From positions 1 through 37,282 of the IMG/VR virus record IMGVR_UViG_3300030102_000654: a stretch of DNA of 37,282 bases; one strand, written 5' to 3'. Below are positions 9,332 through 22,363 of this stretch, piece after piece. Origin of the DNA: a virus. The position numbers and the translations under genes are program-made. Under the pieces are notes generated by a model. That model made no database searches and was not told the DNA's origin. It saw only the letters and a list, made by a program, of their open reading frames with translations. Numbering within the stretch: the stretch's first letter is position 1; each line of letters begins with the position of its first letter.

Positions 9332-9367
9332 TTAGAATGATTCTAAAGAGGGAGCCGAAGCTCCCTC
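9332..9367 (-). terminator. Hairpin attenuator after the major capsid gene
   Basis: On the minus strand an 8-bp GC-rich stem GAGGGAGC/GCTCCCTC closes a TTCG tetraloop (9348-9367), followed by a short CTTT run. Immediately after comes a second perfect palindrome, TTAGAATgATTCTAA (9332-9346). The first starts 8 bp after the capsid stop codon. The T tract is short, so partial termination or protection of the capsid mRNA 3' end is more likely than full termination, because head and tail genes continue downstream. Confidence 0.75.
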
Positions 9368-9374
9368 GCTTAGA

Positions 9375-10322
9375 TTATTGGTTGATGTCGAGAAGAATAC
9401 CGTGTGCGGCTTCGTTTCTCATTTCAAGTGTGTACTCAGCTAAGAGTTGTTTCTTCTCAGAGTCACCTGTCTTAGCAAGATCAGTTACTGAAAAGTCTCT
9501 TAGGTAAGCAACAGCAGCCATGTCTCTTTGTAATAAGAATGCATTGCTTTCACTTGTTGTTGCCATAACTCTGTTTGGAACAACTTGTAGATCACCAAAG
9601 TCTGATGAGTAAACATCAATAGCTGCGTACTCAACTTTAGCATCAGCTTGTCCAAATCTAGTAGTGTTAGCATTGAAACCAGATATAGTTTGTTTCACAC
9701 TTGGTGGAACAACTAATAGATCCATTTCTCCGCCAGACTCATAAACCTCTTTGATAACAGTCTTTAAGATTGTTTCAGTTAGGTCTCTGTCAGTACCAGA
9801 GTTAGGTAAGTCAGTACCAGAGCCAGTAGATAAAGCTCCACCAGATCCTGCATCACCATTAGTTTTCAACCATGTTGGGATTGAACCTAATTTTCTAGCA
9901 TTTGATGCGTCACCGACAGCTTGAACTTGCCCTTTGATAAGAGTAAATTCCATATCTTTTTTTAACTCTTTAGACTTCTTAGCAATTTGATATGCCATTT
10001 CATCAGCTCTACCAGCAGCATCAACAGCTGATTGAGTTCCAGAAAGGGCAATCACTTTGTCAGAAATCTGAGTAAAGTTAAATGCTCTAGTTGTAGCAGT
10101 CATAGCATCAATAGTTGCATCATCACCTTCGATTACAGCGTTTGCTCCAGGTGCAGCTAATGCATCTAATTGCCATTCATGCTTTGTAGATTTTGCAGCA
10201 GTTCTAGGAATTGCTGAAAGTATTGGGGTTTCTTCAGGAGATATGTTATAAATCACATCTACTAAATCTTCCCTAATACCAGTAGTATCGTACGTGTCGT
10301 ACAGATTACTTGGTTGTGCCAT
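9375..10322 (-). CDS. Major capsid protein (DUF5309/SU10 type), 315 aa
   Basis: The N-terminal region (D-T-T-G-I-R-E-D-L, then I-S-P-E-E-T-P-I-L-S-A-I-P-R) is the hallmark of the DUF5309/SU10 family of HK97-fold major capsid proteins, and the total length fits. The E-W-Q-L-D segment near residues 49-53 and the long helical E-M-A-Y-Q-I-A-K-K-S-K-E-L-K stretch near 128-141 agree. The gene follows the scaffold gene and is preceded by an AGGAGG ribosome binding site. A strong hairpin follows the stop codon. Hundreds of copies would form the T=7-like head. Confidence 0.88.
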   Translation of the reverse strand: MAQPSNLYDTYDTTGIREDLVDVIYNISPEETPILSAIPRTAAKSTKHEWQLDALAAPGANAVIEGDDATIDAMTATTRAFNFTQISDKVIALSGTQSAVDAAGRADEMAYQIAKKSKELKKDMEFTLIKGQVQAVGDASNARKLGSIPTWLKTNGDAGSGGALSTGSGTDLPNSGTDRDLTETILKTVIKEVYESGGEMDLLVVPPSVKQTISGFNANTTRFGQADAKVEYAAIDVYSSDFGDLQVVPNRVMATTSESNAFLLQRDMAAVAYLRDFSVTDLAKTGDSEKKQLLAEYTLEMRNEAAHGILLDINQ

Positions 10323-15080: not shown

Positions 15081-15337
15081 TATTTCTTTTTACGCCATCC
15101 TATTGTAACTGCAATAGGTTTTTCATCATCTCCTGAAATAGTTTTATTAACTGACGCTAGTTTAGAATGTACAAATGGTGCTGCTTCTTTTGCTGCCCAC
15201 ATCTTTTTTTCAATAGATACTTTAGGATTATTCAACATATTCAACATATACTTCAAAGGTGTAGTTTGTCCTTTACCTAGTTCTGCTGCTAAGCGTTCTG
15301 CTTTTGTTCCTGCTTTAACTCCTTTAGGTCTAGCCAT
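15080..15337 (-). CDS. Putative terminase small subunit, 85 aa
   Basis: A short basic protein directly upstream of terL. The segment with T-P-L-K-Y-M-L-N-M-L-N-N-P, then K-K-M-W-A-A-K-E-A-A-P-F-V-H near residues 26-54, resembles the DNA-binding small terminase proteins of marine podoviruses. It would recognise the packaging site and regulate TerL. It ends with a basic G-W-R-K-K-K tail. Identification rests on position and pattern. Confidence 0.6.
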   Translation of the reverse strand: MARPKGVKAGTKAERLAAELGKGQTTPLKYMLNMLNNPKVSIEKKMWAAKEAAPFVHSKLASVNKTISGDDEKPIAVTIGWRKKK

Positions 15338-15960
15338 TAAGATAACAATCCCATCATATTTGCCATAAGCATTTTATTTAATTGTTTTGGACCCATTGTC
15401 ATACCTGGATATTTATTTTGTGTTGCAGGATATGTTGGCATCCCCATGGGATCTACTCCTGGTCTAAACATTGGTTGTATAGCATCCTCTGTAGGATATT
15501 TCATGTTTCTATTTTCTGGATATTTAGGCATATTATCACCTGGATAAAAATCTCTAAATGTTCCTTTTGGTCCACGCTTTTGTAATTCTGACTTCTGCAT
15601 ATTCATTAGTTCTGGAAATATATTTTGCATAGTCGGTGAACCTTTTAATGCATCCTGTCTAATCTTATCCATTATACCTGGACCAAATTCTCCTTCTACT
15701 GCATTCATAATCTGCATAGCTCTTGGACCTTTGATCTCTCCACGAAATACTTTAATAGCATCAAGATATAGTTGTTGCTCTCCACTATCTCCAAACTTCA
15801 TGTAATCTGCCATATTTACTTTAGGCTTGATTCCAAATACTTCATTGATGTCTTTATTGGTTTTTATTTCCTTACCATCAAATCTAGAATTAGGTCCTAC
15901 AACTTTATTATTTAATATCTCAACTGCATCATTATCAACAGTTGCAAATTTTAATGACAT
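15337..15960 (-). CDS. Hypothetical late protein, 207 aa, Met/Pro-rich C-terminus
   Basis: No domain is recognised. Residues 1-130 are mixed and partly helical; residues 130-207 are rich in Pro, Met, Tyr and Gly (P-M-G-M-P-T-Y-P and similar), suggesting an extended region. It shares its stop/start junction with the small terminase candidate, so it is part of the packaging operon. A head-assembly or virion role is possible but not shown. Confidence 0.5.
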   Translation of the reverse strand: MSLKFATVDNDAVEILNNKVVGPNSRFDGKEIKTNKDINEVFGIKPKVNMADYMKFGDSGEQQLYLDAIKVFRGEIKGPRAMQIMNAVEGEFGPGIMDKIRQDALKGSPTMQNIFPELMNMQKSELQKRGPKGTFRDFYPGDNMPKYPENRNMKYPTEDAIQPMFRPGVDPMGMPTYPATQNKYPGMTMGPKQLNKMLMANMMGLLS

Positions 15961-17219: not shown

Positions 17220-17299
17220 TACTTTGTTTGGATACCTCCTATATATATTTATCGCCATACGTTATATTATTACGCCCTATACCGTTACAAAACCCCCCT

Positions 17300-17591
17300 T
17301 ACGAGCTTTGCTCGTAGGCGTTAGTCAACGCCAGGGTGAGGAGTTGGCTTCGCCAACCCTTGCCGACTGCATTTATGTACTTGGTATCGTTATCTTTTCT
17401 CTTCTCTACCTTTTGTTTTGCGGTACGCAACGACACGAAAGTATGACGAAGATAAGAAGATATGTGTGTGTGTAATACTATACGGAAGGAAGTAAGTATG
17501 TATATGAATCAATCAATATGTGTATGGTTTATGGATTTATTTATTCTACGGTCGTTCGTGCAAAATGCCGAACTCCCTCCCCTCGCAGGGG
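17300..17591. repeat. Cluster of GC-rich perfect mini-hairpins
   Basis: Five short perfect hairpins lie here. They are TACGAGC-TTT-GCTCGTA (17300-17316), GGCGTT-AGTC-AACGCC (17317-17332), GTTGGC-TTC-GCCAAC (17343-17357), TTGCG-GTA-CGCAA (17418-17430) and CCCCT-CGC-AGGGG (17579-17591). Four have 3-base loops. The first two are directly adjacent. They are strongly GC-rich inside an AT-rich genome. Possible roles are origin structures, protein-binding hairpins on single-stranded DNA, or mobile palindromic elements. Confidence 0.75.
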
Positions 17592-18201: not shown

Positions 18202-18213
18202 TCTCTTTGAATG

Positions 18214-18231
18214 TTCCCCCTTCGGGGGGAA
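18214..18231 (+). terminator. UUCG-tetraloop hairpin after the first early gene
   Basis: TTCCCCC pairs with GGGGGAA across a TTCG loop, 12 bp after the stop of the 147-aa gene, followed by the T-rich stretch TGTTCTTGTTTTGTTCT. The flanks carry a direct repeat GAATGTT. It looks like an intrinsic terminator or processing barrier that isolates the first early gene. Confidence 0.65.
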
Positions 18232-18286
18232 TGTTCTTGTTTTGTTCTCAAAAAATTTCGGCTCGCTTCGCTCGCCTGAAGAATGA

Positions 18287-18773: not shown

Positions 18774-19016
18774 ATGAAAACTATAGTTGTTATGATTGCA
18801 ATGTTATTGGGAACAATAGCATTTGCAGATGATCAGTATGCACCAAAGCAGAATGATAGAATCAATCTGTATAAGGTAGTATCTGATAATGAGAATGCAC
18901 CTATGTACTCTGGATATTTCAGAGATTCAGAAGGTGTTGTTCACAGAGTAGCAGTATGGGCTGGAGCTTCAGATAAATATCTAGAAGGTTCAGTAACTAT
19001 ACCAACTACTGAATAA
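18774..19016 (+). CDS. Exported small protein, DUF736-like core, 80 aa
   Basis: Residues 1-18 are a clear Sec signal peptide (charged K2, hydrophobic core, A-F-A cleavage site before D-D). The mature part contains N-E-N-A-P-M-Y-S-G-Y-F near residues 40-50, followed by a V-H-R-V-A-V-W strand and K-Y-L-E-G-S-V. This layout resembles small DUF736-type beta proteins (N-x-x-x-P-x-Y-x-G, then W, then K-Y-L), which are normally cytoplasmic. A periplasmic or surface role early in infection is inferred. The ribosome binding site is AGAAAGGAT. Confidence 0.6.
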   Translation: MKTIVVMIAMLLGTIAFADDQYAPKQNDRINLYKVVSDNENAPMYSGYFRDSEGVVHRVAVWAGASDKYLEGSVTIPTTE

Positions 19017-19091
19017 CTAATGGGTATGGGTAGGATACTGGAATAACATTAAGGTTTAAATCCTACCCAACCTTTATGAAAGGAAAATAAT

Positions 19092-21070: not shown

Positions 21071-21319
21071 ATGAGCAATCCAATAATTAATCCAGATATG
21101 GATCAAGAGGTTTACATAAAAGTATATCCAGTTAATGACTGGGATACTTCTACTGGTAAGCCAGTACATTCTGGTATCAAAGGGTATATGCCGATTCAAG
21201 TTACTAATACATTGATGATTGAAATCAATAAGATGATTAGTAAAGAAGAAGCACAGAATTATGTTGATGATCCTAAAGTTGCGTTTAGTGTAGTGGCTAA
21301 GCCTGGATATATCAAATAA
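21071..21319 (+). CDS. Small hypothetical protein, 82 aa
   Basis: Strand-rich protein with V-Y-I-K-V-Y-P-V-N-D-W-D near residues 14-25 and a helical K-E-E-A-Q-N-Y segment. It has an excellent ribosome binding site (AGAAAGGAG). No domain is recognised. It is the last gene before the structured leader. Confidence 0.55.
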   Translation: MSNPIINPDMDQEVYIKVYPVNDWDTSTGKPVHSGIKGYMPIQVTNTLMIEINKMISKEEAQNYVDDPKVAFSVVAKPGYIK

Positions 21320-21395
21320 TATATACCATGGTTGGTGCGGTGGGAGACCTAGTACCGTTAATGAGTGCTATCTTCTCACTGCATCTATATAATAT

Positions 21396-21515
21396 TCTTA
21401 ATGGTTTTTGTTATTTACCATTAAGATAGGTGACAATTATTTAGTCCTTCTTTATAGTTGTCACCGTTTATGGGGGAGAAAAGCTTACCACCCAGTTAGC
21501 CCTCAATCTCCCCCA
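21396..21515 (+). promoter_or_regulatory. Three-hairpin RNA leader ahead of the DUF3846-like gene
   Basis: Three consecutive stems occupy the gap before the gene at 21534. Stem A is TCTTAATGGT/ACCATTAAGA (21396-21405 with 21417-21426), perfect. Stem B is a 12-bp stem with one G-U pair, core GGTGACAA/TTGTCACC (21429-21440 with 21454-21465). Stem C is TGGGGGAGA/TCTCCCCCA (21471-21479 with 21507-21515), with a 27-base loop. The ribosome binding site follows 8 bases later. This looks like a cis-acting RNA or a separate small RNA. The upstream part (21320-21395) holds a TATAAT at about 21388 without a good -35. Confidence 0.65.
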
Positions 21516-21533
21516 CCAATGAAAGGAAAACAT

Positions 21534-21863
21534 ATGAATAAATATAAAGTAACAATACTATATTGTGATGGTAGAGTAAAAGATGTTGAAGTACAAGGTA
21601 CTGATGGACCTGAGTTTCAAGGTGACAATGGGATGTATAAACATCTTGATTGCAATATGATAGAAATAACTGGTGCAAGATACAATGATAAGAATTATGA
21701 TTTATATATTGATGAAGAGGGTAGACTAAAAGATTTACCTACACTAAATCCACTTGCATCTAAGTACTTTGTTGATTGGTTAGACCATGAACAAAGAATG
21801 ACTATTGAACCTAATGTTATGGGTACAGCTGCCTTAGTAGAAAGGAATCCTATAAGTGACTAA
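21534..21863 (+). CDS. DUF3846-like protein, 109 aa
   Basis: The start chosen is ATG 21534, placed 6 bases after GAAAGGAAAA; longer in-frame starts lie within the structured leader. The region D-C-N-M-I-E-I-T-G-A-R (about 40-50), then Y-I-D-E-E-G-R-L-K-D-L-P (about 58-69), N-P-L-A (73-76) and a late V-M-G-T-A-A-L-V resembles the DUF3846 family found in phages and plasmids. The function of that family is unknown. The gene overlaps the next by 8 bp. Confidence 0.62.
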   Translation: MNKYKVTILYCDGRVKDVEVQGTDGPEFQGDNGMYKHLDCNMIEITGARYNDKNYDLYIDEEGRLKDLPTLNPLASKYFVDWLDHEQRMTIEPNVMGTAALVERNPISD

Positions 21864-22050
21864 AGATGGTTGGAAATATTTTGCGATCAATGTAACTGAT
21901 AAAGATCATGCAGAATTAACAGAACAATTAGAGAACATTTGTTTGGCGACAGGTCTAACTAAAAGACGAGTCATACAAATATTAGTTAAAGATAAGTACG
22001 AACATATACAACGATTGAAAGCTAATCCTACATTATCTTCAATTGTTTAA
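21856..22050 (+). CDS. Ribbon-helix-helix-like protein with GTG start, 64 aa
   Basis: GTG at 21856 follows AGAAAGGA by 9 bases. The pattern Y-F-A-I-N-V-T-D-K-D-H-A-E-L (strand then helix) and G-L-T-K-R-R-V-I-Q-I-L-V (second helix) fits a small ribbon-helix-helix DNA-binding fold. It is the last gene of the rightward early block. A transcriptional switch role is possible. Confidence 0.55.
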   Translation: MTKDGWKYFAINVTDKDHAELTEQLENICLATGLTKRRVIQILVKDKYEHIQRLKANPTLSSIV

Positions 22051-22270
22051 TAAAATATTTGAGTGTACTGACGAGTACAAGCGCAAGCTCAATAGAGATG
22101 ACCAATGTAAGCCTCAGTTGGTTGAGTGTATGTTGGATACCAACAGCACAATAGCACACATCAATGGTAAGACATTGCAGGTTTTATAGGATTGGCTTCC
22201 CTACATCTCGCTAAAATATTCGGTTACGTTATGTAAGGTAAAACCTTCATCTAGCTAGATTGTAACTGAT
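22051..22270 (+). other. Gene-free structured stretch, candidate non-coding RNA
   Basis: No convincing gene occurs here. Perfect short hairpins are TGTACT-GACG-AGTACA (22064-22079), AGC-GCAA-GCT (22080-22089), TGTTGG-ATA-CCAACA (22131-22145) and AAGGT-AAA-ACCTT (22235-22247), followed by the 12-base palindrome ATCTAGCTAGAT (22249-22260). The density is higher than in the surrounding coding DNA. It may be the 3' region of the early transcript or an independent small RNA. Confidence 0.5.
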
Positions 22271-22340
22271 AGGTAGAAAGGAATGAGTGCAGGATCAAAA
22301 TCTAGAATAAAACTGTTCACTTCTAGCGTTTCTTTCTACC
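22271..22340. terminator. Nested inverted repeat between convergent genes
   Basis: Outer arms GGTAGAAAG (22272-22280) and CTTTCTACC (22332-22340) are perfectly complementary; inner arms CTAGAA (22302-22307) and TTCTAG (22321-22326) are also perfect. It lies between the plus early genes and the minus HExxH gene, so a bidirectional terminator is likely. The left arm contains a ribosome binding site that the right arm would sequester. Confidence 0.55.
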
Positions 22341-22363
22341 ACTATAATTTTTCTTTGAAGTAA
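22283..22363 (+). CDS. Possible 26-aa leader peptide
   Basis: ATG 22283 comes after GGTAGAAAGGA, an excellent ribosome binding site of the kind used by the real early genes. The product begins M-S-A-G-S-K-S-R-I-K. The frame runs through the inverted repeat and overlaps the 3' end of the convergent gene at 22342. It may be a tiny peptide gene, a remnant of a longer gene, or an unused site. Confidence 0.3.
   Translation: MSAGSKSRIKLFTSSVSFYHYNFSLK

Follow-up and report, generated by a model that had tools for sequence, protein, structure and literature searches.

Two hairpins before a DUF3846-like phage gene form one copy of a modular RNA element

Introduction

Stems lying within polycistronic mRNA are known from the T7 RNase III sites and from the REP-type hairpins. 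Promoter early stem-loops (PeSLs) are known in T4-like phages (Arbiol, 2010; Comeau, 2014; both as cited in PMC4503421). For ToxN_Pa the cut site was reported to be AA/AU (PMC5086642), and structured RNAs from environmental sequence, including marine and phage motifs, are contained in Rfam (Weinberg, 2010; PMC2864571).

The window analyzed here, an IMG/VR virus record taken over its whole length of 37,282 bases, encodes a SU10-like portal and a terminase with 48% identity to the terminase of Pelagibacter phage HTVC106P. The gene at 15337-15960 shows ~39-71% identity between relatives, which is far below the neighbouring terminase and portal genes. No tRNA or tmRNA was found. An initial annotation described three hairpins between two early genes and interpreted them as a possible cis-regulatory leader of the downstream DUF3846-like gene or a possible stable small RNA. 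Here, the locus is compared with 18 loci encoding relatives of the DUF3846-like protein and with 10 loci encoding relatives of the upstream protein.

The gap upstream of the DUF3846-like gene

Checking the pairing in the window recovered all three stems: stem 1 (hairpin B), a perfect helix of 10 bp, pairs 21396-21405 with 21417-21426, stem 2 (hairpin C), with 12 bp including one G-U, pairs 21429-21440 with 21454-21465, and stem 3 (hairpin D), with 9 bp, pairs 21471-21479 with 21507-21515 (Table 1). The claim that such stems are unlikely by chance was borne out as well, as positions 21390-21520 fold with -47.8 kcal/mol compared with -21.2 +/- 2.9 kcal/mol for shuffled sequence (z = -9.0), a stability matched by 0 of 200 dinucleotide shuffles, and the whole gap (21310-21545) folds with z = -6.1. 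This stability speaks for a structured RNA element. Three features had been overlooked: a fourth stem, hairpin A (-25.1 kcal/mol, z = -4.1), of which 40 bases are identical across G001, G005 and G007, the abutment of stems 1 and 2, which form one unit flanked by AATAT, TAG and YTA, and the recurrence of this architecture at 22054-22344. In relatives the gap comprises 82-259 nt (ATG counted) and the frame is not kept, so the hairpin-bearing gap is noncoding; the start of the downstream protein, MNKY or MNKF, is conserved.

Table 1. Positions of the hairpins, units and gene discussed in the text (window coordinates).
Feature	Position	Strand	Remarks
Hairpin A	21334..21385	+	From fold; sole hairpin in the G005 gap
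AATAT linker	21391..21395	+	Opens the B-C unit
Hairpin B, P1 half of unit, T-A closed	21396..21426	+	
P2 half of unit (TAG, hairpin C, TTA)	21427..21470	+	Unit score 20.8
Hairpin D, single, GC-rich	21471..21515	+	In G001, G007 and G016; not in G003 and G014
DUF3846-like gene, 109 aa	21534..21863	+	Starts at ATG 21534
Array unit 1, class alpha	22054..22213	+	AATAT; P1 22059-22092; TAG-P2-CTA 22093-22213; read from sequence
Array unit 2	22215..22344	+	AATAT; P1 22220-22269; P2 22270-22344; score 20.3

Among the relatives, the hairpins of the gap are gained or lost as wholes. G001 and G007 contain A, B', C, E and D, G016 contains B', C and D, and G003 and G014 contain B' together with a longer C, while G002, G004 and G018 carry a different two-hairpin element, termed F. 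Hairpins A, D and E each occur alone and stand outside the two-hairpin frame. A search for hairpin C elsewhere returned no dispersed copies; the five contigs that have it carry it at this one site.

A role in controlling the DUF3846-like gene, as riboswitch or as protein-binding leader, is suggested by the strong structure and by its position directly 5' of the ribosome binding site (RBS), but this part of the initial annotation did not stand. In G006 and G008, the gene sits elsewhere without the hairpins, and the F element stays 3' of the upstream gene although the DUF3846-like gene has moved; gene and hairpins are thus not tied to each other. Moreover, unrelated hairpins replace the content of the gap between close relatives, no U-tract follows stems 1, 2 or 3, no terminator-like site is present in the gap, and the RBS (~21522-21528) lies outside stem D, downstream of the stems in the 131-nt fold, so that neither a terminator nor an RBS-sequestering stem is visible as expression platform. 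A match in Rfam is also absent. Control of this gene by the hairpins is accordingly scarcely credible. The label of the gene is itself weak, with 24.0 bits for Pfam DUF3846 compared with a cut-off of 27.5.

Terminator-like structures occur at other places of the window. The hairpin at 18209-18236, which has a TTCG loop and runs into a T-rich tail, is the best terminator-like site of the early region, and a strong GC-rich intergenic hairpin at 9336-9379 scores on both strands and is possibly a bidirectional terminator. The stretch 17273-17353, located between divergent gene blocks, is strongly structured and stable on both strands.

Covariation and the folded strand

Compensatory changes, for which the initial annotation had suggested a covariation search, were found in homologous elements and are thin at hairpins B and C themselves. 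Among near relatives, two pairs of hairpin B are compensated and two are broken; in hairpin C the outer stem is invariant and the loop is replaced. For P2 of the F elements, 94% of the cells are paired with two-sided changes at 8 of 12 pairs (slid controls at most 64% and at most 5), and for class alpha, a class of unit described below, 96% are paired with two-sided changes at 14 of 26 pairs (slid controls at most 46% and at most 2). Class members vary in the outer stem and keep the core, as in P1 of array unit 2 of the window and of L080. The string CTGANGA in class alpha was considered as part of a hammerhead; it is the hexaloop C-TGACGA-G, and further hammerhead core was not seen. Another intercistronic hairpin, at 19027-19069, possesses a conserved core (GATACTGGA...GGTTTAAATC) and a covarying stem, with 100% pairing, two-sided changes at 5 of 11 pairs and 0 in slid controls; in the relatives examined, it is positioned 3' of the gene 18774-19016. 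As the sequences compared share ancestry and the same alignments served to derive the structures, the shuffle counts behind these covariation figures are not probabilities.

As a G.U count obtained with a G.U-friendly finder is biased, the counts were redone with a finder restricted to Watson-Crick pairs and with one favouring A.C. The unit stems contain G.T and A.C in a ratio of 53:7 with the former and 54:9 with the latter. This excess identifies plus-strand RNA as the folded molecule, because DNA hairpins or the other strand predict no such excess. Together with stability and compensatory changes, it upholds the part of the initial annotation that proposed a structured RNA.

Pairing that is kept while the stem sequence drifts would also be expected from passive punctuation of the mRNA, i.e., processing and stability signals between early genes, comparable to T7 RNase III sites or REP hairpins, which tolerate any sequence provided a strong stem is retained. 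The intercistronic location and the gain and loss of whole hairpins are in line with this main rival, and for the single hairpins A, D and E it is a good fit. The conserved cores, the fixed two-hairpin frame, the tandem arrays and certain P1 domains of more than 120 nt, however, exceed what a barrier needs, and passive punctuation is judged to be somewhat unlikely.

Unit frame and tandem arrays

Together, hairpins B and C make up a single copy of a broader modular two-hairpin RNA element with the consensus AATAT-[T-P1-A]-[TAG-P2-YTA], in which two helices abut without spacer and successive units are separated by a single-stranded AU-rich linker of ~6 nt. A finder built on this frame gave scores of 12-28 for real units and 20.8 for the B-C unit, and the best score after shuffling the window four times (~150 kb) was 10.9; as the frame was defined after viewing these sequences, its worth rests on new cases. 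The window itself contains an array of two units between convergent genes at 22050 and 22342, joined by ...CTCTCGCTAAAATATTC..., and the CTA with which unit 2 ends overlaps the convergent gene's stop codon. Relatives carry ~1-6 units each, some of them more than the window. Within one array, the units are unlike in sequence and length.

Further arrays in viral contigs were identified with a 17-base linker pattern, which returned 44 stretches, more than half of them apparent chance matches that were excluded by eye. A P1-TAG pattern yielded additional arrays, including L100. The contig of L073 encodes a different terminase (phrog_38) and the contig of L066 a PolA-DnaB replication module; no fewer than two further phage groups possess similar arrays. 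The carriers are uncultivated, probably marine phages, in which the element is either solitary or arranged in tandem. A blast of the arrays against named phages gave nothing other than two chance matches in genes, and the gene adjoining the arrays in L068, L073 and L100 has relatives in three named phages, where the stretches read contain no units.

Close relatives possess different units in the gap that corresponds to 22054-22344, as is the case for the content of anti-defence islands. This points to a possible role as decoys or RNA antitoxin mimics, in which defence ribonucleases of the ToxN kind would cut the A-rich linkers, or RNA-sensing defences would bind the units, and would thereby be blunted. 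The linker CTAAAATATT contains the AA/AU site of ToxN_Pa, a short motif that may occur by chance, and a phage was reported to escape ToxIN via pseudo-ToxI repeats (PMC5086642). ToxI repeats, in contrast, are near-identical pseudoknots, whereas the units here are unlike each other and consist of two helices each. No ToxN match was found in seven array phages or in the window, and the control genomes were unmatched too, the toxin being expected in the host. The decoy reading narrows the main reading given below to one particular case and, taken in this narrower form, is unlikely.

Exchange of halves

Pairs of units were found in which one half is shared and the other differs, the change falling at the P1/P2 junction. 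Pairs sharing P1 have identities in P1 and P2 of 92% and 57%, 98% and 54%, and 87% and 47%, and pairs sharing P2 of 12% and 91%, 46% and 95%, and 23% and 91%, respectively, where shuffled letters align at ~40-53%, or at 12-23% if the lengths are very unequal. Single linkage fused several P2 classes in the clustering, which also retained a few doubtful low-scoring units; half swaps are therefore given as named pairs only. The phages thus rebuild the element by exchange of P1 and P2 halves, which behave like interchangeable parts.

Exchange of whole and half units with breaks at short conserved linkers would likewise fit mobile hairpins or recombination sites acting at the level of DNA (PeSL, REP or attC-like) that have no role as RNA. 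The asymmetry of G.T over A.C argues against this, as it points to plus-strand RNA, and so do the bacterial genomes, in which unit copies were not seen: a pattern covering one P1 subtype gave six matches in bacterial and archaeal genomes, all of which resemble ordinary coding sequence and lack the unit. An explanation at the DNA level is very unlikely.

Transcription signals

The array units identified share the strand of the adjacent early genes. The first unit of the array in L061 and in L066 begins 2 bases after TTGACA-17-TATTAT (11 of 12 matches), and 11 or 12 matches occurred at 5 of 3,000 random positions; in L068, TTGACA-17-TATAAA was read from the sequence at the corresponding place before the array. 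The arrays in L061, L063, L066 and L068 begin directly 3' of a consensus sigma70-like promoter. For most other units, the promoter-like match is not above background. A promoter for each unit is ruled out, strong sigma70-like matches being confined to the array heads of a few contigs.

Discussion

The reading favoured here, to which we assign a probability of roughly 45%, is that hairpins B and C belong to a co-transcribed modular structured RNA that is processed at its linkers and acts in trans. The data show a structured RNA of the plus strand that is modular, is exchanged as whole and half units and is spread over several phage groups; cleavage of the linkers and action in trans are inferred. 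As part of this reading, and with the same reservation, the unit before the DUF3846-like gene would stand alone between two cistrons and would not be a switch of that gene. A unit would be transcribed from the plus strand within the early mRNA, each half being an exchangeable domain in which the core is conserved and the surrounding stem changes freely. The AU-rich linkers may be cut by an RNase E-type endonuclease of the host, and the terminal helices would protect the released two-domain RNAs. These might then act in trans, with binding to a protein or RNA of the host as the likeliest mode; the array would have been diversified to cover several targets. Action in trans is favoured by the conserved cores, the unlike units within arrays, the independence from neighbouring genes and the arrays headed by promoters. 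A stable small RNA, the second suggestion of the initial annotation, is possible and finds better support in the tandem arrays.

In a more far-reaching form, the exchangeable P1 and P2 domains would constitute a combinatorial kit, arrayed, processed at AU-rich linkers and acting in trans against changing host factors, and would be to RNA what variable anti-defence islands are to genes; this form is conceivable and on balance doubtful. If it were true, phages without tRNA genes would bear a hidden noncoding array with members assembled by swaps of RNA domains, the array would be a record of the RNA domains whose exchange pays in the conflict between phage and host, and the conserved cores could be used as bait for binding partners. 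Hairpins between early phage genes should also not necessarily be taken as gene-specific switches.

The two-hairpin element is apparently undescribed, being found neither in Rfam nor in the literature searched, which covered few subscription journals; combinatorial two-domain RNA arrays were not described in that literature either. In Rfam 15, no family reached its gathering score, and relaxed searches gave weak matches at chance level, far below it. The environmental RNAs of Weinberg (2010; PMC2864571) are alike in being conserved structured RNAs from environmental sequence and from phages, and differ in being represented in Rfam. The type III toxin-antitoxin RNAs (ToxI, antiQ) also consist of tandem structured units with A-rich joints that are possibly cut, but they repeat a single short pseudoknot beside the gene of a toxin, whereas the units here are unlike (PMC5086642). 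The PeSLs are closest in behaviour, as they are likewise hairpin cassettes between early phage genes and accompany modular shuffling; each PeSL combines a promoter with a stem-loop (PMC4503421), whereas here most units lack a promoter, and each consists of two abutting hairpins whose halves are exchanged.

With the RNase III sites and the REP-type hairpins, the element has in common that its stems are intercistronic within an early operon. It is set apart from both by its conserved cores, by the fixed frame of two hairpins and by its arrangement in arrays.
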